From: Atriophallophorus winterbourni
Taxonomy: Eukaryota; Platyhelminthes; Trematoda; Plagiorchiida; Microphallidae
Length of the DNA: 64,000 bases
Assembly: GCA_013407085.1 (NCBI GenBank)
Contig: JACCGJ010023477.1
Span: forward strand, 94,425 to 158,424
Direction: 5' to 3'
The number at the start of each line of letters is the position of its first letter. Within the stretch, counting starts at the first letter, position 1. Shown piece after piece: positions 953 to 61,855 of this stretch. The notes under the pieces were generated by a model. It was not told the origin of the DNA and searched no databases. It saw only the letters and a program-made list of their open reading frames with translations. A program made the position numbers and the translations under genes.

Positions 953-1530
953 ATGGATATGCTTGCGACAACATTTAAACGCATGTCCACACAACCTACA
1001 TACGTCCATCAAGCTGGACAGCTTCACCAAGTATCCAATGCAACAGTTTCTAGACCTTACGTTAAGGAAACGTCAGAGGGTATAAGTCGAATCTTGAATT
1101 ACGCAGGTATACGAGTAACGCATAAAAGGGGTACAACGCTCCGATCATTATTAAAGCATCTCAAGGATAAAACACCTTCAGGCTGCACGACGAATTGCGT
1201 AAATAAAATCAACTACAAGGGTTGATCGGGAGTATATATCGGGCAAACATCCAGAGAAATTAGTACTAGGATAAGTAAACACAAAAATCGAACCGGTAAG
1301 CAGTCAAACATTTCCAGTGGATATCAATCATTGATGAGAGATTTAGCACTAGCTGAACACGTGCTTCACACAGGTCTCAGCATTGATCTTGATAACGTAG
1401 AAGTGATAAGGTGGGTAATAAAACCATACATTGAAGGACCTCACGCTGAGGCGGTTGAGTTACCGAAGGCTGGTAGGAATGCAGTCAATAAGATGGATGG
1501 GGCCGATATCTCCACAATCTGACGTATGGG
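953..1530 (+). pseudogene. Penelope-like element GIY-YIG endonuclease remnant
   Basis: The frame reads a connector (RILNYAGIRVTHKRGTTLRS, then LKDKTPSGCTTNCVNKIN), then YIGQTSREISTRISKHKNRT, then LAEHVLHTGLSIDLDNVEVI. That order is the linker, the GIY-YIG catalytic segment and the histidine-containing region of PLE endonucleases. One in-frame TGA sits just before the YIG motif at about 1224. The second cysteine pair expected just before it is lost (NYKG). The RT that should precede it is not visible upstream, so the copy is truncated. A hammerhead-like motif follows on the same strand at 1795-1845, as in other PLE 3' regions. Confidence 0.8.
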
Positions 1531-1794
1531 TCTGCAGCGGATGAACATTAACGTACGTGACAGCTAGTGTGCGCACCAAGCTCTTAATCGAGCTAATCTG
1601 TCAGCAGATATCATTCACACCTTCCAAGACCAAAACAATTGAGGGATTATACTGCACGGGGGTGTGCCAGTAGATATTGATCGGGCCTGTTTATCATAAC
1701 GAGCACAGAACCCACCCTGGACTTTGCGGTACTTAGCCAGCTTAGGATTGGTCAGGTGAATGAAATTTAAGCTTGATCACTTTTTTACTATTGA

Positions 1795-1845
1795 CACACT
1801 TGGCCTGACGAAACTTCTGAGACAGAAGCGACACGTTCCCAATAA
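1795..1845 (+). ncRNA. Degenerate type I hammerhead ribozyme of PLE type
   Basis: The core CTGACGA is at 1805-1811. Helix II CTTCTG pairs with CAGAAG (1814-1819 with 1823-1828). The GAAA position reads GACA (1830-1833), followed by CGTT and CCCAA. The CTTGGC before the core can partly pair with CCCAA after it as helix I. Three relatives lie in the window (19389-19425 minus, 19735-19775 plus, 47328-47370 plus). Hammerheads are known in PLE pseudo-LTRs. The A-to-C change in GAAA makes this copy probably inactive. Confidence 0.6.
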
Positions 1846-1859
1846 ACAGCTCTCACAGA

Positions 1860-2740
1860 TTCATTGCAAACTTTCTTTATTTCACTTTAGCCAACGCTTA
1901 TGCACAGCGCACTATTCAACCCCTTTGCGCAATACACCTTTTGTCATAGTCTCATAAAAGTCATCGATGCCAGAGTTTGTGGAGACCCCGAGGCTTGACC
2001 AAACTATTTGGAACAAGGCCATGGCGCGTAGAACAAATTAAAATTGTCAACGTCTTCAGAACTATGTGAGCAGTTTAGTCTTTGTATCACTAACAATTTC
2101 ATTCAAACATACCCACGTTCAAAGAAATTGCATCAGCTTGTTCTTCGTCTCGTTGAGCGCAGTAATATGAAAAGCACAATACTCAAGCGATCATAACAGA
2201 GCGCAAATGCTCACGCAGACCATTTATTGATTCGTGCAATACTGAAACTCACAAGACGCGATTTTAACATGCAACAATGATTGATAAGCCAAGGATCGAT
2301 GCTGGCCTTTTGCGCGAGTCTAATCTTACGGAACTATGTATGAGAAATTACCCAACAAGACTGCATAAACTCGTTATGTCTTCCCTCTTCGACATTGAAT
2401 GAGCAAATCAATTTAACTATTACATCTCAGAAGCTTTTTTTAAATTTGCCGGGGCGTCAGACAAGTGTCTTTGCACGGATTCAACATTATCCGTTCACTG
2501 CCCAAACGTTTGAGAACACAAACTGCTGTTGGAAGAAGATTCAGCTATCGTTTCCCAACACACATAGTAGCTTTTGTCGAAGATATACCGCTTTTTCCGG
2601 CATTTATGGAATTTGGGATTGTATAAAATATGAACAAAATCAAAGTCCATAGTCAACGGACTGTATCACTTCCAATTAGCAGTGTTGAAAACGGTCAGTT
2701 TCACATATCTGACCATTCACACTACTTTCTCACGATCGAT
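1860..2740. other. No gene recognised
   Basis: The stretch has short open frames only, the longest about 85 codons at 2395-2652. That frame shows no recognisable domain and no repeat match inside the window. Probably decayed repeat or spacer. Confidence 0.5.
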
Positions 2741-2779: not shown

Positions 2780-3113
2780 GTTCTTTGTTTGGTCCCGACA
2801 CCAGTGTAGCGAGTGGGTGGGTTTGGGAGGGACCGGAAATCAATGTGCCAGGTCTTTTCGGGTCAACAAGTCGCAGCTGGCAAATGGTTACATTTCGTTC
2901 CAACAAGAACCGCTAAACCACCCCGCGTTGCACACACGCACATCCAACGTGTATCGATTCATCCCTGAGGTCAACCTGACCAACGCTATTCGCGTTCACC
3001 CACCATTCCCAAATCACAAGATAATCCAATTGGTCAATGGTGTTTATTAAGCACAAGACAAATAAAGAAACACACCAATGTATTGTGGTGCTCACATTCA
3101 CATCTCTTACACA
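2780..3113 (-). repeat. Dispersed repeat block Y
   Basis: The part at about 2935-3085 recurs, often inverted, at 38995-39170, 42405-42530 and 54640-54710. A shared hallmark is TTTATTAAGCACAAGAC next to GTTCACCCAC. It lies directly next to a hammerhead repeat at 3114-3151, and the copy at 38.9 kb keeps the same order (hammerhead then Y, read along the ribozyme strand). The two therefore probably belong to one composite element. Open frames across it are not conserved between copies. Confidence 0.6.
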
Positions 3114-3200
3114 CCACTACCGGTTTCTGGCTGTTTGCCGTCATCAGGTGGAGACAGTATGATCAGGTTCAGTGAGGCTTGAAACAGTGGTGAAGTGTTA
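3085..3200 (-). ncRNA. Hammerhead-ribozyme short repeat, subfamily 1
   Basis: On the minus strand, CCAC (3151-3148) precedes core CTGATGA (3147-3141). Then come a helix II of GGC/GCC around an AAACA loop, GAAA (3127-3124), CCGGTA (3123-3118) and GTGG (3117-3114). CCAC and GTGG pair as helix I, and the predicted cleavage is after GTA. Helix III is the self-complementary ACCGGT. The outermost helix II pair is C-A, a mismatch, while all other core positions match the hammerhead consensus. The post-ribozyme tail (GGGATG-like, then GTGAGCACCACAATA) is shared with copies at 56218, 3653 and 22887. Confidence 0.75.
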
Positions 3201-3252
3201 ATCAATGTTATGCTTGGTGTTCACCTTGTGTTCGCCGAGCTTGCGTAGTTGT

Positions 3253-3299
3253 TCTTGGATGTTTCGTCATCAGGCTAGATGACATCATTAGCAAAACTT
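3253..3299 (-). ncRNA. Hammerhead-like motif, left arm of inverted repeat
   Basis: On the minus strand the core reads CTAATGA (one change from CTGATGA). It is followed by helix II GTCATC paired with GATGAC, then GAAA (3265-3262) and CATC at the cleavage region. The right arm shows CGTC there. The core G-to-A change probably abolishes activity. Confidence 0.6.
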
Positions 3300-3487
3300 C
3301 TTTCCAAGAATTCTCGAGCGTGGCACTCAACAACAAATTCAATTAACCAGCATCTCCAACTGGCTACAACATATGGACAAATGAGAAACCGCTCACGGAG
3401 AAGGCATAACATAAACTCGACCAATCCGCGGGAGTGACCGTGAACGGTCAGGCAAACAGTATAATAACCAACGAATTCGAACTGCAA

Positions 3488-3535
3488 GTTTTGTTGATGA
3501 TGTCATCTAGCTTGATGACGAAACGTCCAAGAACA
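3488..3535 (+). ncRNA. Hammerhead-like motif, right arm of inverted repeat
   Basis: The core position reads TTGATGA (3494-3500, expected CTGATGA). Helix II GTCATC (3502-3507) pairs with GATGAC (3514-3519). GAAA is at 3520-3523 and CGTC at 3524-3527, with predicted cleavage after 3527. CAAGA afterwards pairs with TTTTG before the core as helix I. Helix III is the minimal palindrome ACGT, which usually implies action as a dimer. Confidence 0.65.
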
Positions 3536-3639
3536 ACTACGCAAGCTCGGCGAACACAAGGTGAACACCATCCACATTCTGAGCTACGAATATTTTCCTC
3601 TATTGCTGAATGTTATACTTGCATGCCACTGGTGTATAG

Positions 3640-3910
3640 AGTTCTTACCAGTAGTGGTGTGTAAGGGATGTGGATGTGAGCACCACAATACATTGGTCTT
3701 TTATATGCGCCTCGAGCTCTAGGCCAGTAATCACTTTGTGATTCTGTATTTGAATGAAACACACGCTTATCTTATATATAGGCAAACAAACAATTACAAC
3801 GGTGATCCTCAAACATGTTTGTCTCGGTTGTCACTTCGACCTGATTTGGTAATCGATTTCGTGCCAACCTGTACACTTCAATATGAAACGCTTTTGGTTA
3901 AGATTTCATT
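3640..3910 (+). repeat. Hammerhead-repeat 3' half joined to repeat block X
   Basis: 3653-3695 matches the post-cleavage half of the hammerhead short repeat (GTAGTGG, then GTGAGCACCACAATAC), but the ribozyme core upstream is absent. 3740-3900 is repeat X, with AACATGTTTGTC and TCGATTTCGTGCC blocks shared with 54715-54830 and, inverted, 38750-38900. A more diverged X copy is at 51440-51600. No credible coding frame. Confidence 0.6.
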
Positions 3911-20429: not shown

Positions 20430-22880
20430 AGCCGCAAAGCCCGACAGGCTAATTGTTTTGTTTGTCGTGATAAGGTCCATATGAAGTGCGATGCTACTTT
20501 GACAGTCGATGCCCTTACGGTTATCAATTAAGACGAAATTCCAGGAGTTTGCTACATCTGCCAGATATGCAGATCTCAATCGAGAAATTGTACGAAGACA
20601 ACTGTGAGCACACAGACCGACGCGGATATAAAAATTTTATGTTTAAAGAGTAGTGTACAAAGAATCGAAGGTCTGCTAAACGAGCTTCTGATTGGTAAAC
20701 TCGGATATAGAGCACATTGTGAATATCATGTCTCCTCCTCGGTTATAGAAAGGCAGCAAACCGAAAAAGTTGATGATCAACCTGTACACAAGCGCCCACA
20801 TAATTAGAAACACTTTTCTGATGCGAAATCCTCTGGCACTAAATGGTTACGAAGACCAAGATCCCTGCTCATCGGGAGGTTCCGCTTAAACAATCGGTTT
20901 TAACTTCTAATGTTGCCGCTCCAAACGTCGCAAAAAATCTCTCTGTAATCTGTACCAACATACAGGAGTCTAGCGAGACACGTCTGGCGAATAGACCTAG
21001 AACAATGGTCCAAACGTTTTACGTTGATGGGGTTGGAAACGATAAAACCTTCAGTTGTTACACGTTTGGTTCGCCACCAAAGCTCCCGACACCTTGGCGA
21101 AGCGCGGCTACTAAAAGACACTCTTGCCTTTCAAACCTTCTGCTCTCCCTCGATGACTGGACACAAGCTGTAGGCAAAGGTCTCACCATACACGCGTGTT
21201 ATCTTGATATGTCCAAAGCATTCGATCGTGTCAAACACAGTCTGTTACTAAAAAAATGGAGCAATATGGCATCAAGGGTTCATTACTAGCCTGGTTTGAT
21301 GATTTTCTCCGCAACCGTGTCATTCGATTAAGGGTTGACGGTGGTTTATCACGACCCATTGCAGTAACGAGTGGGGTGCCGCAATGATCATTGCTTGGAC
21401 CAATTCTCTTCCTGATCTATGTAAACGACTTACCGAAACTTTTTCGCAGCAAAATCTTGTTATTTGCGGATGACATCAAGCTGTGGACACAAGTACGCAC
21501 AACTGAAGATTGCAGACAGCTTCAGCTGGACCTTGATGCCTTACAGAACTGGTCAGTTAGAAATGAACTACCTTTCAATTTCAGCAAATGCAAGGTATTG
21601 ACTGTTGGAAGACATTTTGAGTTCTCTTACACCCTTGGTTCCCATATTCTTGAAAGCACTGACAAGGAGAAGGACTTGGGTGTGTGGGTAAGCAGCACGT
21701 TGAAACCGTCGCATAACGCCACAGCTGTCTATGAAAAGACGTCGCGAGTTTTGCTTCTTCTAAAACGCGTGTTCGGGAGTTTCACGAAGCAAATAGCTCA
21801 TCGAATAATTAATACATACTTGAGGCCAACCATGGAGTATGCGGTTCTGGATTGGTCACCCTGGCTACAGAAAGACATCAGTCTTTTGCAGAGAATATAT
21901 CATCGGACCACCAAGCTCGTACGTGGTTTGAAACATAAACAACACGAAATTCGGATTACAAGCCTCAATCTCTTCGACTCTCCCTACCGCCGTCTTAGAG
22001 GCGACTTGATTCTTATGTTCAATATACTGCATACCCACAACCATCCCCTGAATCAACTATTCACACGACTACCAACACGAACAAGCCGGAGTCATAACTT
22101 TTTTTCATTTTCATTTTCAGCCCTCTCCGTGCCGGGTGGCACATGAGGCGAAGACAACTTCACGCCAGTGGTTCCGGTCTGTCGCTGCTTCCGTTGCCGT
22201 CTGCACCTTGAATCCTTGTGCATGTAGTTCGCGTTCCAACGTTCTGCGCCAAGTTTCCTTGGGCCGTCCCCTTTTTCGTTTACCTTGCGGATGCCAGTGC
22301 ATGGCTACCTTCGTATGCGAACTGGGATCCATCCTGCAGACATGACCGAACCACGGATCTGTTGTCATCGTTTCCGTAGCAATGTAGGTTTTACGGGATA
22401 GGGTTGCTAGCCCTAAGCCCAACCCTCCTCCTTTCTCAGACGGGCTTGGGACCGTCCTTGGCGGAGTTGGAGTCATAACTAAACAGTACAGTACAGGCTG
22501 AACTGTCGAAGGTATTTTTATTCTGTACGTGGATGTTTTTACATGGCACTCCCTACCCTTGTTAACGTTGCACACTCACCCAACTTGGATATATACAAAT
22601 CGAACTTGGACAACTTCATGTCGACCAATCCAAACATTGAAACAATATATTCTGCATCATAAAGCTTTGAACCAATGCATCGAAGTAAACTAGACATATT
22701 TAGCCTATAAAACCGATTGAAAACAATTTCTGCTCTATGTATTTTTACGTGATTCCTGAACTAATCAGTAGGCAAACAAACCCCTTTTTCTAACTATGTT
22801 ATTTGTAATTCGCATATTATTCTGTGGTTTTTGTAAAGCTATGTGCTTTTTAGACCATTAAATTGAATTGAATTGAATTG
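20430..22880 (+). mobile_element. CR1 copy G, ORF1 joined directly to RT
   Basis: ORF1 (20435 to about 21050) has the cysteine/histidine finger ANCFVCRDKVHMKCD followed by VCYICQIC, then STQTDADIKILCLKSSVQRI. At about 21050-21115 it passes straight into HSCLSNLLLSLDDWTQAVGK, so the endonuclease and the first half of RT are missing. RT motifs: CYLDMSKAFDRVKHSLLLKK, SGVPQ then stop then SLLGPILFLIYVNDL, LLFADDIKLW, LGVWVSSTLKPS, YHRTTKLVRGLKH. The frame is open over 251 codons (21391-22146). The 3' UTR ends in TTGAA units at 22880. An RTE-derived piece interrupts it at 22100-22468. Confidence 0.85.
22100..22468 (-). mobile_element. Short non-autonomous RTE-derived insertion with 12-bp TSD
   Basis: The insert is flanked by perfect copies of GGAGTCATAACT (22088-22099 and 22469-22480). 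On the minus strand it starts with a G-rich leader (GGGTTGGGCTTAGGGCTAGC, then CCCTATCCCGTAAAAC). It continues into a frame encoding WFGHVCRMDPSSHTKVAMHW, KRKRGRPKETWRRTLERELH and TDRNHWREVVFA, the C-terminus typical of one RTE/endonuclease-RT family. It ends in AAAATG-type repeats. About 370 bp, far shorter than an autonomous element. It is the youngest-looking insertion in the window. Confidence 0.85.
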
Positions 22881-22884
22881 TAAG

Positions 22885-22920
22885 GGATGGGGATGTGAGC
22901 ACCACAATACTTTGAATTGA
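22885..22920 (+). repeat. Hammerhead-repeat tail between two TTGAA blocks
   Basis: GGGATGGGGATGTGAGCACC and ACAATACTTTG, the distal part of hammerhead repeat subfamily 1, sits between a (TTGAA)n tail (22861-22881) and another TTGAATTGAA run (22912-22930). It lacks the ribozyme core. Confidence 0.7.
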
Positions 22921-37569: not shown

Positions 37570-38255
37570 TTTGGTTGTTCTCGTTTGTGAAGCTGAGTTA
37601 CCTGACCTGAATTAGCTCAGTTGTATTTTGTGACTGAATTTCCCTCCAAACGATACCCGAGGGATAACATGAATGGAGTCATCAATGAAGTCTGTTAATC
37701 CCTCTTTGCATTAAGGTAAATAACGGTTATTATGTATGGAATGTACGATTTCAAGGCATGCGAATCCCGATCGTACTGTTCTCACTTGATCAGCGCGAAC
37801 GGAACGAAAGCAGTAGATGTGTATGTGCGATGGAAATGCAAATGAAAATATTTGTACTATGGCATTGTTTAGCTAAATGTATTTGAAAATAATACAAATG
37901 GTCTAGCTTGACGTACGTTACACGCAATAATGTTCTGAGTTATACATACAATTGATAATTCTATGATAATTCATTAGGTCCTTCAATTTTGCATTAAAGT
38001 TAATCTCAGTTAGGTTAATTAAATTGATGCCTCAATCTCATGAAATTTGCATAGAATCTTACAAAATTATAGATTAAGAAACGCTTTCCAAAATGCTGTT
38101 AAACGGTTTAATTAATTTTATTTGAATTTCAAAAATAGACTTACCTTTGTGCACCTCAATTTTGTTCTGCAAAAACAGAGTAAGGTTTAAAGATAAATCC
38201 CATGGGAAATCAGAACCTCAGTTCAGTCATGGAATTGATGAATATTCGTTTTAAA
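37570..38255. other. No gene recognised
   Basis: No frame beyond about 60 codons. If the flanking direct repeats are LTRs, the pol region that should lie here has been deleted. Confidence 0.4.
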
Positions 38256-38739: not shown

Positions 38740-39175
38740 AAGGTCGGTAAAATATGCTTAGATTCAGGACGTTTTGTAGCGTACCGGCTTGCACGAAATT
38801 CAAAGACAAATCAGATCTAAGTGACAACCTGGAGAGACATAGTTCAGGACAGTGTTGAGGTTGTTTGAGTTGCCCCTTATAAGATAGGTGTTTCAAGCGC
38901 ATTCGTATCGCTGATCTCACTGTCCATACCTGATGAATGCAAACAGCACGAATCCGGTCGTTGGGTGTGTTTGACGGAAAAGCATGCAAATGAGTATTTT
39001 GTTTCATAGGTGTTTCTTGTTATTTGTCTTGTGTGTGATAAACGCGTTTGACCAATCGGCTATCTCTTGCGTTGTGGGCTCGTGGGTGAACACGAATAGC
39101 GTTGGACGGGTTGACCTCATGGATGAATTGGGTTCAAACTTGACGTGGCTATTAAGCGCGAGTGGGTAACGTAGT
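38740..39175 (+). repeat. Composite repeat: block X, hammerhead, block Y
   Basis: 38750-38900 is X inverted relative to 3740-3900. A hammerhead motif lies at 38921-38966. 38995-39170 is Y inverted relative to 2935-3085 (GTGATAAACGCGTTTGACCA, then GGTTGACCTCATGGATGAAT). This is the most complete arrangement of the three parts seen here and suggests a single element of at least 430 bp. Confidence 0.6.
38921..38966 (+). ncRNA. Hammerhead-ribozyme repeat, subfamily 2
   Basis: Core CTGATGA (38930-38936), a short helix II of TGC/GCA around AAACA (38938-38948), GAAT in place of GAAA (38950-38953), then CCGGTC (38954-38959) with predicted cleavage after C, then GTTGGG. CCATAC before the core pairs only partly with GTTGGG. 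The last A of GAAA is changed, so activity is doubtful. Confidence 0.6.
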
Positions 39176-46559: not shown

Positions 46560-47298
46560 CTTTTCCGTGTTCGGTTGCGGATGTTTAACTCTGTTCAATT
46601 GGAGCTTAATTAAGCTTTTGGGGTAACCATGATTTCCAAGTCTGCAACTGACTTCTTCATAAGCTCGTCTCTTATCTGCATCATCGCTGCAAAGGCGGTC
46701 AACCTTGTAGAATAGCGATTTTGCTATAAACTGAAATACCCTTTTAGGGTGCGCAGATGTAAATATCAAAATGGCATCCGTGTCGATGGGCCTGGATTAT
46801 TGGATTCAAACTATTGAGATAACTATGAAATTCTTCTAGTCTGTTTAGCTTTATGATGTCGAATGTATCGTCGACATAGCGCTACCATATCTTTGGTTTT
46901 AACGCTTCGTTTCTCAAAGCTATCTCTTCGAAGTGCTGCATGTACATATTCGCTAGCACTGAAGAAATAGATGAGCCCGTCGCTAAGCCATCGTTTTGTT
47001 TGTATAGCTGTCCATTAAATAAGAAGTGTTTCATATTTAGACAAATTGCTACACCGTTGATGATTTGTTGTACACTCATGTTGGTAAGATCCTTCAAGGT
47101 CATATCGGAGTTGAGCGATTTCCTCAATAATTCTAAAACGCTTGTAGTGTCAACATTCGTGAACAAGGAGCTTACGTCAAAACTAACCATCATCTCATCC
47201 TTCCCAATTGGTACGGTACTTAAGCGACGAACAAAATCAAACGAGTTCCTAATAAAAAAATTCGTGTTACCAACCAATGGTTTCAAAAGCTGAGCCAT
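46560..47298 (-). pseudogene. Penelope-like reverse transcriptase fragment
   Basis: Reading minus from ATG 47298: MAQLLKPLVGNTNFFIRNSF, MVSFDVSSLFTNVDTTSVLE (RT motif with catalytic Asp), MKHFLFNGQLYKQNDGLATG, SSISSVLANMYMQHFEE, then PKIW, stop, RYVDDTFDII, with the catalytic YVDD at about 46870. Then LIFTSAHPKRVFQFI and the region to about 46560. PLE RTs are related to telomerase RT. N-terminal part and GIY-YIG domain are absent. One nonsense codon lies immediately before the YVDD box. Confidence 0.9.
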
Positions 47299-47299
47299 T

Positions 47300-47370
47300 T
47301 ATACCTGAACACTGTTCGTACCGACACCCTTGGTCTGACGAATTTTCTGTGTTCAGAAGCGAAACGTTAC
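47300..47370 (+). ncRNA. PLE hammerhead ribozyme, best PLE-type copy
   Basis: TTGGT (47330-47334) directly precedes core CTGACGA (47335-47341). Helix II TTCTG/CAGAA around TGTT lies at 47345-47358. GAAA is at 47361-47364, then CGTT, then ACCAA, which pairs with TTGGT as helix I. Helix III is the palindrome ACGT. Predicted cleavage falls between GTT and ACC (after 47367). It lies on the strand opposite to the RT next to it, implying an inverted PLE end. Confidence 0.7.
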
Positions 47371-47405
47371 CAAAAACTTACTATAACCGATTCATTGCAA
47401 ACTTT

Positions 47406-47507
47406 ATTTCGGTTTGTTTTTCTAAACAAATTTTGTCCCAATCAATCAGTTCCGTCTCTTTTTCGGTACAGCTGGATTGATCATTTAAGAATAAGAGTAT
47501 GAAATAC
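47406..47507 (-). repeat. PLE flanking direct repeat, 5' copy
   Basis: Partner of 46432-46536, with a few substitutions (CTCTTTTTCGGTACAGCTG against CTCGTTTTCGGTGCATCTA). It directly follows the hammerhead unit on the plus strand. Confidence 0.8.
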
Positions 47508-47744
47508 TAAATCCGTATTCCAACGTATTTCAATCAAATACAACGAACGATCGGTTTGGAGCTGTCTGTACCCAAAGTGTAGGGACAATGCGATCGGGAT
47601 TCGCATGCATTGAAACAGCGAAGGAAAGGTAAACCATTTTTCGGCTTTTACGTCACTGATAGATAATGCTAGCATGACACTTCTGTTCAACCACACGTGC
47701 TCACGAGAACTCATGGGCTTAGACGAGTAGCCGTATTTGCACTC

Positions 47745-47812
47745 ATTTCCATCATATAATCACCTCACGCCTGGATTCGTGCTGTTTGCACTCATCAACT
47801 GAGGATCTTGAG
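47745..47812 (-). ncRNA. Hammerhead-ribozyme repeat, subfamily 2 (degenerate core)
   Basis: On the minus strand: CCTCA, TTGATGA at the core (47798-47792, first C lost), a perfect helix II GTGC-AAACA-GCAC, GAATC where GAAAC is expected, CAGGC, then GTGAGG. Helix I (CCTCA with TGAGG) is well kept even though the core is mutated. The tail ATGATGGAAATGAGTGCAAA is shared with the copy at 55907. Confidence 0.6.
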
Positions 47813-48382
47813 ATCATAACCGCACATTTTTAAAAATTGCGTAAACGGCAAACTTAGTTTTTTTAATTAGGCCATTGTTGGATAAGACTGATACGACCAA
47901 TTTCTTCCATCCTCCGTGCATGATGATGCATTTTCATGATGCACAAACACACACAGCGCATAACGGAGTAATCAATAATATTTCCCTGATAACTATTCGT
48001 ACCTCATGGGGCTATATAAGTTCTAACACTGAAATACCTTAATAGTGAAATGATGATAATTAGTGCGCAAGTGTCTAACGCTTCTTGACATTCAATCCTA
48101 TCATACGTGCACCTAGTCTATTAAATACTCAGATTTTTAATGCGAGTGCAATTACGGTAATTTGGTTAGACCGCGTTGTTCTCTCAGCACTCGTGCTACA
48201 ATCGTTACCTGGTGCTTTGCAAACTGTGTTTCTGTGACAAATCAAAACATTTCTCTCATGAGGGCCAACAAGTATTGATTATCTATCGAATACTCCGATT
48301 CTCACTCAAATTGAGCAATATTTATTCTCTTCTTAACCTCGCAATACTCAGAGTTTTCCTTGGAGCAGCTAATGCAAAAACA

Positions 48383-48395
48383 AATTGATAGATAA

Positions 48396-48454
<59 letters not shown>

Positions 48455-48479
48455 GATAGAGAGATAGATAGATAGATAG

Positions 48480-48544
<65 letters not shown>

Positions 48545-48580
48545 GATAGACAGATAGATAGGTCGATAGATAGATACATT
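48383..48580 (+). repeat. (GATA)n microsatellite
   Basis: About 190 bases of GATA units, with scattered GATAAATA, GAGATA, GACA and GGTCGATA variants. The translated frames across it are pure repeat artefacts. Confidence 0.95.
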
Positions 48581-48954
48581 GTAGTATACAGTAGATAGAC
48601 AGTAGATATTATAGACATGTGTTTTGTATCGAACAACTTTTATTCAGCAAATAGTTTTCTAATTTATAAAATAACTCACATTTTTTTTGTCCTCGTTGTA
48701 AGAAACTAAATTTTTGGGTAGAATGATGATTATTTTGAATGAATTTCTCAAAGACACAAAATATTTAAGATGGAAAAATATAAAATTTTCTCTTCTATTC
48801 CGTTGATTCAGTCTGTCATTTTGAAGACATTTTAAAGAGTAGCTTACATGTGAATTAAGCATCATAGTCGCTATCATATCATTTGATTTTTGAAGAATCT
48901 CTCAAATTGTTGTATCGTTTTCTCAGAATATTAATAAGTAGTCTTTAGTTGTAC

Positions 48955-53519: not shown

Positions 53520-54490
53520 CAATGAATCCTAGAATAACCAGTTTTGAGAATTCCACATATCCCACTACTACACTGCTTGAAGCATCGTATCCTGAGCAAA
53601 ATCAATGCTAACACACAGTTTTAAGTGGAGCTATTGGTATAACAAACAAGAATGTATATTTGATTCTTTGAGGAAATTCAATATTTTAGAAATACTCCAC
53701 TTACTTGTATCCTTGTCTGGAAAGACAAATGCAATAATGATTTTTAAACATATTTCATGTTTGGGAAACACATTTTGTTAACCAAAGAAACATTTTATAT
53801 TTATTTACGTCATATCAACCTCAGAATCTTAACCTGTTTCATGCAGGACACCACGCGAAATCGGTATTGCATGGGATCTTCTGCCATTTTCCACCATATA
53901 GTGAAGACGACCTTTCAATTAGGATGCAATCCATTGGATAATGTTTGATGGACACCACATTTGAATTGTTCTAGGTGTAGGATACTTCATACAATAATAA
54001 TAGTAATAATAATAATAAGTGCGGAGCAATGATATGAAGCCATTTGACATTGTTTTACCGACAATATCAGATTTGTCGACCTGTTGAACTGTCCATGCAT
54101 ATTAGGAAACATCATGAGACAGTTCATGGTTTCAGCGTCCACACACTTTAATGGCGGATAAATAAGCAAACATCAGAAAGATGAGGTTAGCACACAACCA
54201 TTTACAATAATTTTAATTGCATCTTCCTAATCGGCTTGAGAGTAGCTATCCCATATTACCGTTAAATCAAAGAATCAAACACAAGGCATAAAACATAGGA
54301 AAATGATAGCTCGATATTTGACAAACCTTGCTTGCTCATTGCGTCTGAAACTGTTCAAGTAATATAAAACATAAAGTGTTTTAGGTACAAATCTACTACA
54401 CGATAGAGAAAAAACGTATCATATTGTAGCGGGTGAGGTACTACCCGATAAAGTAAAACGGATCATATTGTAGCGGGTGGGGTAGTGAGG
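53520..54490. other. No gene; short tandem repeats only
   Basis: A small (TAA)n tract lies at about 53993-54019. A duplicated ATCATATTGTAGCGGGTG unit occurs at 54418-54440 and 54462-54485. No coding signal. Confidence 0.45.
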
Positions 54491-54639
54491 TCGGAAATGA
54501 TTGTGTCTTCTCATTTTAAGTTACCAATGGGCAGGTCGCCAATTGTCTCATTTATGTTTCATTTGTCCAACAATAGCCACGTTAGCCCCCGCGTTTCACA
54601 GCCACTTGAACTTGGGCACCAGATCCACACCAGAGGTCA

Positions 54640-54880
54640 TTTTGTCCAACGGTAATCAGGTTCACCCACTACACAAGAGGCGTTTATTAAGCACAAGACC
54701 AATCACAAAACACACGCCTATGTTATATGGGCAAAAAAACAATCACAACACGGATCCTCAACATGTTTGTCCCGGATGTCACTTCGATGTGTTTGTAAGT
54801 CGATTTCGTGCCGACCAGTACGTTTGACGGACATTGACTAATTGCGTATCGTTCGATTGCGGATGACATTGCCAATCGTC
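54640..54880 (+). repeat. Repeat blocks Y and X joined without a hammerhead
   Basis: GTTCACCCACTACACAAG and TTTATTAAGCACAAGACC (Y) run directly into AACATGTTTGTCCCGG and GTCGATTTCGTGCC (X). In the copies at 2.8 and 38.9 kb a hammerhead lies between or beside these parts, so this copy shows a different arrangement. Confidence 0.55.
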
Positions 54881-54884
54881 TCAT

Positions 54885-55895
54885 CGCTCAATATATGTTG
54901 TCGCTTGAACTGTTCGTAGGCCATCATTCCGAAACCCGAAAAATTAGGAGTTCGCAATTTGGTGTGCTGAAGGGTGGAGTTCTTCATTTCATTAAAAGGC
55001 TCGTGATTAACACGCATCACTATTGCACTTCGCAACCCAACACTATTAATTGAAAAATCTTTTTTTAATTTAGTTCATGTTGAAATAATGGTTCATTCTT
55101 GTTTCAATTATAATTCCTTTATAAAATTGCATTAAATGTGAGACAATAAACGAAGCTCACCCAGGAGACCGCGTGCACCAGAAACTGTCAAAAGGAGCAT
55201 TAAAGGAATCGTGTAAGTGACTTCGAACTTGGTTGCAATGGCAGAAAATCGATGGATAGATAAAATTGAACACTCTCATTGTATTTCAAATACTTGTAAC
55301 ACTAACCAGGGTTTTATGCATTACACGATGCTTCATAGTTTTATTTTGAGTACGATCTATACGATTCGTATTGGAATGTGACCGGGTCAAGGAACCTCTC
55401 TCCTAAAAGATTACCAAGTGACGGAAAACGGTGAAGACTTATCCATTAAGATGATAGCGTACTTCGGTCCCAAATATGTTAGTATACATTTGTGGCTTTT
55501 CTACCAACCACTCCAATATTATATACTCACATTGTACTGTTTATTCATTAAATACGAATTGAACAACGGCTTTATTGCCGCAAGTCTCTATGTGTTGCTT
55601 TTGTGAATATTCGATTTGCAGTGCGGATCAAACAAGGTTATTATTGAACTTCCGTTCTCCGGATTGCTAAGTGAGTTAAAGTTGCTTCATCCTTGGTTTT
55701 AATGATCAATTCGAGAACTGAACATGATTGCAAGCATCACGAAAGCGATCGTGAAATGGTTTGTACAAAGAACACGCAACTACGAATATTCTTTCAAACC
55801 AGTTAACTTGCGTATGTGTGATTGAACAAATCGCTTATTTCAGCATATAAATCAATGACTTAAATGGTCACCAGTTATTCACTGTTTCTGGTCGT
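54885..55895. other. No gene recognised
   Basis: Short frames only. No matches within the window. Confidence 0.4.
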
Positions 55896-55899
55896 ACAG

Positions 55900-55975
55900 A
55901 TATTGCCTGATGAGTAAAAACAGCACAAAATCATTTGTAGACATGTGTGTGATAGAGGGGTGAGCAAATACGTCT
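55900..55975 (+). ncRNA. Hammerhead-ribozyme repeat, subfamily 2 (degenerate)
   Basis: Core CTGATGA intact at 55907-55913, then GTAAAAACAGCAC (helix II weakened), AAAATC for GAAACC, and the tail GATAGAGGGGTGAGCAAATA as in the copy at 47745. Cleavage site not recognisable. Confidence 0.5.
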
Positions 55976-56164
55976 ATTTTGTGCATCAAACTGTTTATAA
56001 TATCTATCAATTTTCGAAAATGGCGCTTTATATCGGCTTCGCCGCATTTATTTGTATACATTACCACTAGCTCTCAAATTTCCCACGTAAAATTATTGCA
56101 TTTCAGCTTTGTTGAACGCTAAGTTAGCTCACGTCAAAGGTTTGCCGTTAATTCACAAAGTGTA

Positions 56165-56300
56165 ATCCACAGTGTAATCCACTGTTTCAAGGCTCACTGA
56201 ACCTGATCTTACTGTATCCACCTGACGATGGCAAACAGCCAGAAACCGGTAGTGGTGTGTAAGGGATGGGGATGTGAGCAACACATTACTTTGTGTATGA
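56165..56300 (+). ncRNA. Hammerhead-ribozyme short repeat, best-preserved copy (subfamily 1)
   Basis: CCAC 56218-56221, core CTGACGA 56222-56228, helix II TGGC 56229-56232 with GCCA 56238-56241 around AAACA, GAAA 56242-56245, CCGG 56246-56249, cleavage triplet GTA (56249-56251), GTGG 56252-56255. Helix I (CCAC/GTGG) and helix II pair perfectly, all invariant core bases match, and helix III is the palindrome ACCGGT. Predicted cut after 56251. A GTGTGTAAGGGATGGGGATG tail follows. Type I topology, as in known schistosome SINE-like ribozymes, though helix III here has no hairpin loop. Confidence 0.85.
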
Positions 56301-56494
56301 ACCCTGTTCACGCTTTGTTATTGATTTCTGAGGACACATATCCTAGACGACGATAGTGAAATCTGAAACGTGTGCTACTCAATCATGTACCTCAAGAGGC
56401 AATTGATCCTGTGTTAGACCAGTCTGTACTAAGCGAATGTCTAGATTAATTTTACAAAATAATTATAATGTAACAATAAAGCTAATTTGCATGC

Positions 56495-56580
56495 ATTTCC
56501 ATCACACGCACAGCCCACGACCGGTTTATGGCTGTTTGTACTCATCAGGTAGGGGCAGTAGGATCAGGATCTGCATGTAA
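56495..56580 (-). ncRNA. Hammerhead-ribozyme repeat, subfamily 2
   Basis: On the minus strand: CCTAC, core CTGATGA (56548-56542), GTACAAACAGCC (imperfect helix II), TAAA for GAAA, then CCGGTC and GTGGGC. The tail TGTGTGATGGAAATGCATGC matches the family. It lies only 240 bp from the subfamily 1 copy, in opposite orientation. Confidence 0.6.
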
Positions 56581-57104
56581 CTTATAACTTTGTTCGAATT
56601 GTGTGTTTTCGTGAAAAAGTCAGTTTATGCAGTGTTAATTGCATCCATTTTCCTTGAAACACTTTTAAATGTTGCCCTATTTTTGGAACAAGAACACGTG
56701 CTTTTGACAGCCACCTTATTACTCCAGTTTCGAAGACGACGGTGACGTAGTTATTCAATGTGTTGCTCGTCTTCGAACCCAGAAAACTGCGTATAACTTG
56801 ACTTCGCTAATTTGTATCACGCAAGATCTGATACTATAAACTTAGCGATCGATACGCAAATGTAGCAATCAGACATTAGTAACAATTATTAACAATTCAG
56901 TTGACAACCTGTAATACGTAGGATTTGCATTGGAATTTCGTTTCTAATATCAGAGTCTTACGATTCAAACTCCTCGCTATTTTACGCAAGCATTGATGGC
57001 GTTCACGAGCATTTTTTTACTACTTCGGACTCGAAACCGAAAATGGATAGATAAAAGCTACCACAAGAAAACGACTTTTAGACAGGTTGAAGTAGCTTAG
57101 ATGT

Positions 57105-57300
57105 TCCTGTTGTTGGAATCTTTAGTCAACGCCAGCCATAGATGTACATCACAAGCGCATGAAGGTTTCATGCTCCATAGTTCTTAAAATGACTAAATAA
57201 GCCGATTCGGGTGGAACAATCTCTCCCACAGCGCGCGCAACGATAGGTAGTAATCGGTCAAACGGCGTCAATTGCAGACGAGCGGTGTGATCTGTGCTAA
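57105..57300 (-). repeat. RTE 3' end fragment
   Basis: The finger-coding end (CGTTGCGCGCGCTGTGGG, then GAGATTGTTCCACCCGAATC) and TTGTGATGTACATCTATGGC, then ATTCCAACAACAG-like, align with 27180-27355. 5' truncated and moderately diverged. Confidence 0.75.
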
Positions 57301-57589
57301 ACCTTCCCAGGTTGAAAATGACGTTTCACAATGCCTTCAAATCGGCCGTACATACAATTAATTTCTCCAAGGGTAAAATGCATCAAATATTTTCGGATCA
57401 ACTAAAGTCAAATTTGGACGTGCACTTTAGAACGAAGTACGAGATACCGCGACTTGCAGTGAATCGTTTGACCCGAAAACTTTCGCTAGTAAACTGGATC
57501 GTATGTCAATCAATTAAGACGGACAAGAAAAGTCGTTCAGTCGACAAATTGTAAATCGATGTCGGGACATGTTTATCATTTTTTAAATT

Positions 57590-57662
57590 TGTGGTGATAT
57601 TATTGTAACAGATGAAAATTCGTGTGTACGAATAAAGTCATTTTTTCTTCTTCTTCTTCTTC
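57590..57662 (+). repeat. 3' end of the (TTC)n-tailed non-LTR family
   Basis: GATGAAAATTCGTG, TACGAATAAAGTCATTTTTT and TTC repeats match 51265-51327. The 250 bases before it (57300-57560, an 86-codon frame) have no match in the first copy and are unassigned. Confidence 0.65.
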
Positions 57663-59590
57663 AGAATTGAGCGCTCAGGAGCAAGTTCTTTCCAACTTGT
57701 ATTGTCAAAGGCACGAGCTATCGTAACTCTTAGTCTAACGTTTTTGCACCGCAATGCCGTCTGCCCAATAGTCGACTTCCTAACTTCAACTAACTATAGA
57801 GCAAATGTTTTGGAATATGACAACTTTCCAAGTCACTATAGACGGCGCTGCCTTATGAGAGTTAACATGCTCCGTATATCATCTTTAGAAAGCACCATAC
57901 AAAATAAGGTATTGGTGACGCAATGTCAACTGATATGTCACACAAGCACACACAGTAATCATAAATACAATAGGTAAATGAATAATCAATTTATAGTGAC
58001 GGCATTTAGCACACAAAATTTCATTTCTTCGTTGCTGATCAAAGTTTATAAATCTGCACTCACACTCTCTGATTGAAGCTGTAGTAATCGAGGACAAATT
58101 AAAAATGAAAAAATAATGTTTGAAGAAAATTTCTGTGTCAATGAATACCGGACAAACATACATGAACTTCATGAAACAAAATGTTGAAACTTCTACTTCT
58201 TTTGTTGATATTTGCACAACGTTAAAACAAATCTTGATATCTGAGTTCAAGATGTACATATGGATCCTTCGTTCGAGGTAGATGACATCACAAGTGTGTG
58301 ATGATCTCAAGTACCACCATCTGAACACCTTGATTGAATCGCATCTTCCACTGATATCGCGTCCGTTCTAAGCGATAGTCAGTACTCAGCCGATTGGTAC
58401 TCGCAAACTTATCTCAACTTTGCTCGCAAATATATATATATATATATATATTGTAAATAGATATAATTTCATACTTACGTTCTGTGATTGGTTCTGTTAG
58501 TATAGCGGTTGAGAAAACGCCTCATTGTTAATAGGATTTTAATATTTGACAATATTTATGGAAATCATAGAAAGATATCACTTATTTCAATATTACTTTA
58601 TCGGTTGCATCAATTAATTATGACGTAGTAACCTAATGCAAATTGATTTGATTCTTCGCTCTAGCGACTTCCGACGGCAAAATCCAGCAACGTTCCATTT
58701 AAATGATACTTATGCCATTCGTATGATACATATACTTATTAATATGATATTTGTTCATTGATGTTACGAACCGCATTTGGTGTAAAAAACACTTGCTCAC
58801 ACTTTGTGAAGGGTCATTTGTAAGTTGCAGAATAGCAGGTACTGCGAATCTTACGCTATAAACGTGCAAATAAATTCGATTATCCGAATACTGCCTGCTA
58901 CTGAGAGCACTAGAAGAAATATTTCTCTTTGTGAATCGGTTTGTTTAGTCATTCAAACAGATGTGTAGGATGAAACATTCATGTCCAACTTCGACGAAAC
59001 AAGTTTAACACATTGCGGTTAACACAGAAGCTTCTAAATATATGACAGATGTTATGGGAGATGTTTTTTGCTCAAACATTATTGTGCTTCAGTGCAGTTT
59101 GCTTATAGTCAATGTCAGTTGCCCAACCACAAACACGGTTCAAGCGATTCTGAGCCTTTAAGTTTTTGTTCAACTTCGTTTGATTTTAACTTGATCCAGG
59201 AGATAAAAACATGACTATGGTCCAATGAGCGATGATGCAGCGGGCAAAATAAATCTTTGAGTTGGCTACGATATTTCTCATCACATTCCTAGCACAATGA
59301 TTAACACGATTAGTTGTTTTATAAGCTTTAAGCGAGGCAAAGGAGCTTTGATTCTTTTAGTTTTGAAATAATGGTAACATTGAGGATATCGTAGGAATAT
59401 TTTGTATATTTATTTAGTTCATTTTACATGAATTAATTACATATCAGATAAAATATACAAGTATTCAAGGATTTATGTTTGAAAATGATAACAATTTCAA
59501 ACATCACAGGTTTAAGTTAGAATTGAAATTGTGACCATAATATACACCGAGTAGAGTATATCACATGTATGTCTGACGAAATAATGTTTG
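57663..59590. other. No gene recognised; short (TA)n tract
   Basis: A (TA)n run occupies about 58428-58452. A long frame on the minus strand (about 57885-58328) has no early ATG and no recognisable domain. Confidence 0.45.
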
Positions 59591-59594
59591 TTTG

Positions 59595-60020
59595 CATTTT
59601 AAATCTAATTAAGCTTCAAATACGGTCACGCAAAAAGAGTCCATCACAGGTTGAGATGAGGGATTACACAACAATATGCCACACACGATTTAAATGGCAC
59701 CGAAAAACAATATTCGAGTTTCAGATGTGAATGGATAGGATTTGTCCGGGTGTCACTTTCTGCCTACACTCTCGGAACAAGTCCCTTAGCAGACTTCCTT
59801 TAGCAGACAAATTTATTTGCAACAATAATTTTGTATCGTATCGTCATTTAAGTCAGGTGTAAAGAAAACTGCGAAGAAGTATCAAATTCTGTCGTCTAAT
59901 TCCGTTGTTCAAATGAGCGCACGGTTTCAGAACAACAGTATGTGATTGACTGTTTGAACACCGTGGTTCGTTGCAAGAACCATATTCAATAGCAGCATTC
60001 AAGTATACCTTCGTTTACCA
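59595..60020 (-). pseudogene. Ancient CR1 RT C-terminal remnant
   Basis: Parallels 8150-8560: CATCACAGGTTGAGATGAGG, ATGTGAATGGATAGGATTTG and GGTGTCACTTTC on the plus strand correspond to CACCACAGGTTGTGGTAGGG, ACGTAAAGGGATAAGGTATG and CGTGTCACTTTC. No open frame survives. Confidence 0.65.
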
Positions 60021-60049
60021 TTTTACCACTGTGTCAATTCTCACTGAAT

Positions 60050-60140
60050 CTGAACTTACCGTCTCCAACTGATAATTATTAATAACGAGAAAGAAGCTGT
60101 GGTGTGCAAGTGCGGGGTGCGTGAGCACCTGGATATACCA
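60050..60140 (+). ncRNA. Hammerhead-repeat relic, subfamily 1
   Basis: TCACTGAATCTGA and CCGTCTCCAACTGATAATTA align with the upstream and core part of the copy at 56195-56230. AGAAAGAAGCTGTGGTGTGC and GTGAGCACC align with the rest. The core (CTGATAA) and helix II are destroyed. Confidence 0.5.
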
Positions 60141-60144
60141 ATAA

Positions 60145-61855
60145 ATGTTTGCACCTTCCAGAGGACCTAATTAAAAGTAAATTTAATTACCTTTAACTTT
60201 TGTGTGACTGGCTTAACTTGTGGATCAGTAAGCTTGTTTAATATCTGAAATATCCCATGCATCCAAGCATCGATCGGAGTTGAGAAAGTTGCAGATTATC
60301 ATCAAAAACTATGTTAGCACCTACGAACGCACGGAAAGGTAATCTGTGGTCTGTTTTAGTGCTTGACGAATAAGTACTTTTTGTCTATTTTAACTTAGTG
60401 GTTGTTTTAAAGAGCCCTAATTAACAATAGTATATATATATATCCCAATTTATCACCGGAAAACTTAACACCACATTTAAGAGTGTAAATCCATCATTGC
60501 TAAGCAAATTTGGTAACTTACCTATCAAGAGAGTTTTGCAATTATGTTCTGTTCAAGAGATAATTTCACATTTTATAAATAATTTCACGTAGAATTATTC
60601 AAATGACTTTTAAGAGCCAATTAAATAATCAAAAAGCTTATGATTGATCCTTTTGCAATTACGGAAATTTTGTATTGCTTTCAAGAAAGCTTTTGTAATA
60701 CTGCTATGCTGACCTTGTTTCGAAAGTGATCGTGTTCCTTCTGTTGAAGCTCGAGTTCAGCATGAGTTACTAATAGCCTGCTAATCGTTCTTTACTAATC
60801 GAAGTCGATATCTCTTCCAAAATGTATAAATCGTCAAACTAATCAACATTATGTTCATCATTATGGTCGGCATTACAGGGTAGCATATCCCGAAGGCGTC
60901 ACTGCCGTCAGACCATTATTTAATTAATACATATAATGATGAGGATGTGTGGGACTTGAAATGCAACTAAATCTTCAGAAGATTAGGCGCAGACACGAAG
61001 AAACGCGTTGCATACACCGCGAATCGAACAATCATTCAACCTGTACACGAGTAGAGCGACATCAGCATGACCACTTGCTTGCAACTTGCCATGCCAACCA
61101 AGATTAACATTTCCTCGCCAGTTCACATAATAATACATAAGACATCCTTTTTGATTGTAATACATTTAGGACTTCATTTAATATGTCAAACGGATTCCAC
61201 TTCTTCTCAATTCGGAAGCTTGTGTAAACCATCAACAATATTATTATTTTTCATTGCAATTTACGGGTGCAATCCATCAACGCTTTGTCAATAATTCGAG
61301 ATAGCTTAATGCTGCGTGTTTAAAGCGGATATCTGCAAGTCTAAATACAAATGCACATTAATCGCACGAATATTAAACTCAAACTTTGCGATTTTGATCA
61401 ACTGAAAGTCTCGAAAATGTATTCTTTCACGAATCTTGTTTTTGTGTGATCAGTGTCTCTGAATCGGCTATGTATATTTTCAATGTTCCAACGTTTCAAT
61501 TTTTACACATTGAACAACCTTGTTGCTTTTAACAATCAACATAATATGTTTATCTAGTTTTCTTAAACGTTGGGCCAAGTTGATCACTTTCCACTACTAC
61601 AAAAGCCGTTAATGTAAAAAAATGATTTTGAGCTGGACCAAGTAAAAAAAAATCTTTGAATCTGGGTATGCGGTAGCCTAAACAACAGCATGAATTGTGA
61701 GGTCATCCACAAGCAAACTATCAAGAATCTAGTTATTCTGCAGATAATTTTCGAAACCTTCTCGCCTGGCAATTCGCCCACAATCTTGAAAACTTAGTTA
61801 ACTTTAATTATTGAGCTTGCTTAGCAGGCTCGGACTCCCTGATTAAACAAACAAT
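60145..61855. other. No gene recognised
   Basis: AT-rich. Frames of at most 75 codons without a family. Confidence 0.4.

Follow-up and report, generated by a model that had tools for sequence, protein, structure and literature searches.

The window analysed here, the whole stretch of 64,000 nucleotides, carries a type I hammerhead ribozyme core at 56218-56255 on the forward strand, which reads CCAC-CTGACGA-TGGC-AAACA-GCCA-GAAA-CCGG-TA-GTGG. The original prediction of perfect helices I (CCAC/GTGG, 56218-56221/56252-56255) and II (TGGC/GCCA, 56229-56232/56238-56241), with all invariant core bases present (CTGACGA, 56222-56228; GAAA, 56242-56245), was confirmed in the sequence, with the cut expected after 56251. 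A strict hammerhead descriptor matched the window twice, at 56222(+) and 3147(-), and 200 Markov-shuffled windows gave a mean of 0 matches, indicating that the core is real and not a product of chance. When contigs of viruses and prokaryotes were scanned for the pattern, 0 matches were obtained. The limits of the repeat copy containing the core, as defined by the extent of genome matches and by the unit alignment, are 56175-56293 and not 56165-56300 as first proposed. The features of this copy are as follows.

56175..56293 (+): A1, putative dispersed retro-copy, positions 1-119 of the repeat unit described below; genome matches centre on this span, which is 98.3% identical to the unit
56208..56212 (+): CTTAC, which could form the 5' side of an outer helix I (sequence, pair counts from old copies)
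56218..56255 (+): type I hammerhead core, helices I and II, predicted cut after 56251 (sequence, descriptor)
56245..56250 (+): ACCGGT palindrome, forming helix III only with two motifs paired (sequence, dimer fold)
56259..56263 (+): GTAAG, which could form the 3' side of this outer helix I (sequence, pair counts)
56284..56293 (+): CATTACTTTG, at which isolated copies end on the 3' side, differing at one base from the PLE-1 terminus CATTACATTG

The hammerhead had been called complete, which overstates the case, as helix III consists of CCGG without a loop; a complete single-motif hammerhead was rejected for this reason. Compared with canonical retrozyme helix sizes, the window copy has the loops and the outer helix I, possible beyond an internal loop as CTTAC in the upstream part (X) and GTAAG in the downstream part (Y), and a loop-less helix III. 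The covariance match that had been predicted proved sub-threshold (RF00163, 136 nt, 12.3 bits against a gathering score of 34, E 3.5). No Rfam family reached its gathering score in the 64-kb window, and the hammerhead was absent from the Rfam results for 54000-61000 up to E 1. Without a loop, the CCGG helix cannot close within one motif, so that two paired copies would be needed; because ACCGGU is its own reverse complement, two motifs can pair at helix III. Hammerheads of newts and viroids have been reported to pair in this way (PMC6155905), as have those of amphibian retrozymes (PMC7229834). The minimal hammerheads of Penelope-like elements (PLEs) have, as here, a minimal helix III with a dimer expected (Cervera 2014 and Lunse 2017, as cited in later papers), and the PLE-1 family described below has one. 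Judged from the sequence, a palindromic helix III that lacks a loop suggests a hammerhead acting as a dimer. The minimum-energy structure of a single motif was not a hammerhead, and two copies folded without constraint took the dimeric hammerhead shape. The energy gain of the dimer was equalled in 221 of 300 shuffles, and dimer stability was therefore rejected as support. In a three-unit RNA model, helix III pairing reached at most 0.12, and was 0 between adjacent units. As no partner motif lies beside the single copy in the window, its ribozyme is probably weak or inactive.

Eleven pieces of the family were found in the window, namely A1 and the following.

3074..3190 (-): A2, old copy that passes the strict descriptor (descriptor, family search)
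3647..3697 (+): A3, old copy with a decayed hammerhead, matching the unit onward to position 179
22878..22914 (+): 36-bp fragment, unit 84-119, within an ATTGA-type simple repeat
37741..37853 (+): decayed relative (profile)
38889..39001 (+): relative, second subfamily (blastn)
47523..47621 (-): decayed relative, about 200 bp on from 47723..47825, same strand (profile)
47723..47825 (-): relative, second subfamily (via the 38921 copy)
55873..55978 (+): decayed relative (profile containing it)
56481..56590 (-): relative, second subfamily (blastn)
60026..60138 (+): decayed relative (blastn)

At least eight relatives had been predicted. Six of them, near 3085, 3653, 22887, 38921, 56495 and 60050, were recovered by blastn from the 56165 copy; the one at 47745 was linked via 38921 rather than directly, and the support for the one at 55900 is a profile that already contained it. 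The seed of this profile included seven of the eight, and it gave two pieces outside its seed, 37741-37853(+) and 47621-47523(-). The description of an abundant hammerhead-bearing family holds as to abundance and dispersal, but the strict descriptor was passed, with an intact motif, by only 2 of the 11 window pieces. A2 sits inside a longer repeat, with a 5' flank like that of A3 and a 3' flank like that of the 38921 copy (shared spans 3074-3299, 3486-3697 and 38911-39128). As for the wider window, much of 33846-64000 is repeated, in pieces, at 95-99.9% identity at the start of the same contig (G000:C14303:986-25329; L049, L009, L050), by either a segmental duplication or a two-haplotype assembly. 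Many broken LINE-type reverse transcriptase (RT) and endonuclease frames lie at 8117-31366, and a 222-bp GATA array lies at 48387-48608.

The layout around the ribozyme (X-HHR-Y), which had not been recognised at first, corresponds to positions 1-119 of a 243-bp tandem repeat of 45% GC. We searched the genome (537 Mb, 15,840 contigs), which gave 1943 first-look candidates, unconfirmed as copies; 41 matches were listed and 40 candidates scored. A density of 27 pieces in 200 kb applies to two contigs picked for holding hits, one of which partly duplicates the window, and is not genome-wide. At least three head-to-tail copies, with one hammerhead per unit, were present in 26 of the 40 fetched stretches, which include two window places. 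The spacing of array units was 242-245 bp in 70 of 97, and the whole 3.8-kb stretch of L025 was array. The longest open stretch in the unit was 65 codons, stops occurred in all six frames, and the 243-bp unit, having no long frame, carries neither RT nor GIY-YIG endonuclease. A coding origin of the conserved block was rejected, as its frames stop and the differences among copies were by eye not biased to silent changes, although an ATG follows or overlaps the core. At unit 187-210, the array unit has a 7-bp hairpin (GGTTCGT/ACGAACC) followed by TATATAA, possibly a promoter, and several isolated copies begin at about unit 1-3, downstream of this hairpin.

The suggested kinship to schistosome hammerhead repeats and to retrozymes was upheld, and the repeat matches published traits of animal retrozymes. 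In published accounts, these are short units in tandem array that bear type I hammerheads and are expressed in circular form, with PLEs as suspected helpers (PMC7229834, PMC7761336). Metazoan non-LTR retrozymes are reported as head-to-tail units of about 150-450 bp, against 243 bp here, and share with the present repeat the type I hammerhead (here as a motif), a GC content below 50%, the lack of protein coding, target-site duplications of more than 4 bp and the presence of PLEs in the same genome; the loop-less helix III is unlike that description (PMC7229834). SMalpha of Schistosoma mansoni, likened here by description and not by sequence, is likewise a short hammerhead repeat tied to satellite DNA and mobile copies, with 335 bp against 243 bp (PMC8490949). 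By its sequence, the element at 56175-56293 fits an animal-type non-LTR retrozyme; an animal source is suggested by the LINE and PLE content and by the hammerhead type.

The invariant core was kept in 75 of the 95 usable units (of 97), on which all unit counts rest, and the base pair at the base of helix II was C.A in 54, U.U in 23, U-A in 12, U-G in 2 and other in 4; the window copy has U-A. The mismatches C.A or U.U in 77 of 95 units would be expected of a hammerhead that was once active and is now inert in nearly all units, with the repeat spreading without cleavage. The same explanation draws on the identity of 21 non-redundant old copies, which was only slightly higher in the core (0.671) than in the 5' (0.583) and 3' (0.548) parts (permutation p 0.025), and on a report that the PLE hammerhead is dispensable for insertion in vitro (PMC11167929). 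Such a fossil is, however, at odds with the intact core of 75 of the 95 young units and with stems that pair above slid controls (71% vs 28-39%), and we consider it rather unlikely. The compensatory changes in the helices that had been anticipated found modest support only, in pair counts of old copies. Among 23 sequences, 71.2% of cells paired, compared with 67.7% in shuffles, 6 of 500 of which reached the observed value, and with 28-39% when the partner was slid. Cells changed on both sides numbered 21 vs 15.4 in shuffles (29/500), pairs with a change on both sides 9 vs 8.0 (177/500), and the covariation score was 0.196 vs 0.172 (45/500). Together, the structure and conservation signal in the old copies appears modest.

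To describe isolated copies, 11 insertions were hand-picked from clusters, excluding the arrays L010, L041 and L058, the simple-repeat copy 22879 and the duplicates L009, L020 and L044. Eight of the 11 had direct repeats of at least 10 bp (10-54 bp) at their borders. The target-site duplications were as follows.

L014: 12 bp
L019: 13 bp
L021: 10 bp
L023: 16 bp
L042: 10 bp
L045: 10 bp
L055: 13 bp
L059: 54 bp
Without a clear duplication: window copy A1 (5 bp), L040 (6 bp), L043 (4 bp)

Mismatched flank pairs shared at most 7 bp in all 110 cases, none reaching 10 bp, and 7 of 2000 random pairs did so. The L059 insertion lies inside the 3' region of a PLE copy whose sister copies are uninterrupted (L059 9080-9300, L060 5750-5980). 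At the 3' side, 9 of 13 termini were exactly ...CACATTACTTTG, 42 nt past the cleavage site, and 2 more were within one base; the deviating termini were the left end of L040 and L055. These 13 termini come from 12 insertions, with L037 added and L040 counted twice, and the ends of L021, L040, L042 and L043 were moved back 2-6 bases by hand where the alignment overran. The old copies A2 and A3 read CAATACATTG at the terminus site; they were rejected as proof of an old terminus, as A3 matches the unit to 179 and A2 lies within the longer repeat shared with 38921.

Inverted 5' parts were present in 6 of the 11 isolated insertions. The outer end of the inverted part was at unit 236 in L014, 228 in L021, 238 in L023 and 237 in L045; L055 ends at unit 2, near the other inverted ends, where TTTACCTTT resembles the main start site, and both outer ends of L040 are near unit 121-123. 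Some inserted stretches (256, 309 and 315 bp) are longer than a single unit, which implies that the templates were multimeric or circular. In the genome, then, the insertions show a constant 3' end with 5' ends that vary, target-site duplications and, often, an inverted 5' part. Spread of a plain satellite at the DNA level, by unequal exchange or extrachromosomal circles for instance, with the hammerhead irrelevant, would suit the many high-scoring copies in arrays and the array lengths of 768 vs 348 bp at two related sites. Against it stand the duplications, the constant 3' end and the 5' inversions of isolated copies, and the uninterrupted sister sites of L059 disfavour it for such copies; as the whole explanation it is very improbable, and DNA-level spread may account for the growth of arrays.

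PLE signatures were present in the window and in the sampled contigs. Those in the window are listed below.

1025..1564 (+): PLE GIY-YIG part, PLE-1 relative (tblastn, 71% identity)
1668..1884 (+): part of a PLE pseudo-LTR bearing a hammerhead-like motif, 80% to PLE-1
46572..47328 (-): PLE reverse transcriptase part, broken
47294..47409 (+): part of a PLE pseudo-LTR bearing a hammerhead-like motif

The PLE-1 family was named from L058:2089-4703, which has N-terminal, RT and GIY-YIG parts; as these lie in separate open frames, this copy is broken as a gene. PLE-1 has its own minimal hammerhead motif. A query with its pseudo-LTR gave 3055 first-look candidates, unconfirmed, of which 40 were scored at 95-100%, and 20 of the 40 listed were read over 120 bases. 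In 17 of these 20, the PLE sequence ended at or within five bases of CATTACATTG; the other 3 continue into the frame. All 20 reach query position 249 or nearly so, and copies ending earlier could therefore not appear. The 17 ends have 13 distinct flanks, four duplicating the flank of another; the exact 10-mer CATTACATTG was found in 9 of them, the others differing by one or more bases, and three of the 17 extend about four bases beyond. Counter to this, four PLE loci, older or rearranged, have other ends: three older copies stop at PLE position 217-222, and the tandem units of C13641 also at 197; an end at 268 occurs in these units as well. These units (G000:C13641, L058-L060) are about 6.6-7 kb long with PLE-1 parts, some inverted, and two of them carry retrozyme arrays of unequal length at the same place.

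The retrozyme terminus CATTACTTTG and PLE-1 CATTACATTG are one base apart over ten. With at most one mismatch, CATTACATTG occurred at 49 of 527,622 sampled positions, the elements themselves being part of the sample, and 12 times in the window vs 8.4 expected. Given this rarity, a chance match exactly at the terminus seems unlikely, yet it concerns ten bases compared post hoc. The distance from cut to end differs, PLE-1 ending 91 nt past its own expected cut and the retrozyme 42 nt past its cut; an equal spacing was rejected as an argument, since the ends of three older PLE copies lie 41-46 nt beyond their motif, close to the retrozyme value, but that of PLE-1 lies at 91 nt. A review states that animal retrozymes show no motif revealing their mobiliser, which makes the likeness of the two termini a point of interest, and it names PLEs as likely mobilisers from shared hammerheads and co-occurrence (PMC7761336). 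A shared 3' end of retrozymes and PLEs was not reported in the literature searched, and may be in print; likewise, the published account of metazoan retrozymes, as far as available to us, was not found to describe inverted 5' parts or a PLE-like 3' end (PMC7229834).

As an alternative, the repeat could be a SINE that a LINE of the same genome mobilises, with the hammerhead as a passenger and the inversions arising by L1-like twin priming. Duplicated target sites and inverted 5' parts occur with LINEs as well, the window has many frames of LINE-type RT and endonuclease, and LINE twin priming would also invert. The retrozyme terminus, however, is neither a simple repeat nor poly-A and resembles that of PLE-1 when compared with PLE ends, and we regard movement by a LINE as improbable. 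A repeat that is a deletion derivative of a PLE pseudo-LTR, moving by the same mechanism as the one proposed here, seems unlikely, if less so than the LINE explanation. It would agree with the minimal hammerheads carried by the pseudo-LTRs of PLEs (PMC7761336), with the motif of PLE-1 itself and with the similar 3' ends, but the hammerheads of PLE-1 and the repeat differ and their flanks are not clearly alike (upstream likeness p 0.025 in one of four comparisons, 0.12-0.51 in the others). Unlike PLEs, the repeat is without RT or endonuclease and forms 243-bp arrays.

On this evidence, 56175-56293 is probably a retro-copy of an animal-type non-LTR retrozyme that is used by the PLE machinery of the same genome. 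The arrays would be transcribed as multimers, in which neighbouring hammerheads may pair via ACCGGU and cut as dimers. The resulting multimeric or circular RNA, suggested by the inserts longer than one unit, would then be used by the PLE machinery, which would begin reverse transcription at the internal site CATTACTTTG, 42 nt beyond the cut, and could prime on both target strands. A purified PLE protein was reported to start reverse transcription internally and to extend both target strands, which suits a fixed internal 3' end together with inversions (PMC11167929). This protein, of the Poseidon PLE of Anolis, would by such activity yield the pattern seen here; Poseidon is autonomous and the retrozyme is not, and its use of retrozyme RNA was not found described in the part of that report available to us (PMC11167929).

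More tentatively, and with slightly less than an even chance in our estimation, the retrozyme and PLE-1 may share a start signal, CATTAC(A/T)TTG, much as a SINE shares the tail of a LINE. In that reading, the RNA would offer two start sites separated by roughly half a unit, one near unit position 119 and the other at about 228 to 2, and priming of both target strands at these sites would give the inverted insertions and the half-unit copies, A1 in the window among them. If true, sequence alone would have identified what mobilises an animal retrozyme. Should the shared signal and the two-strand pattern hold, the mobiliser question could be tested with a single protein and a single RNA, and the comparison of retrozyme and PLE 3' ends could be extended to other genomes having both elements. 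In addition, a 28-bp fragment of the repeat was seen at L051 within a PLE frame, apparently flanked, by eye, by a 10-bp repeat.
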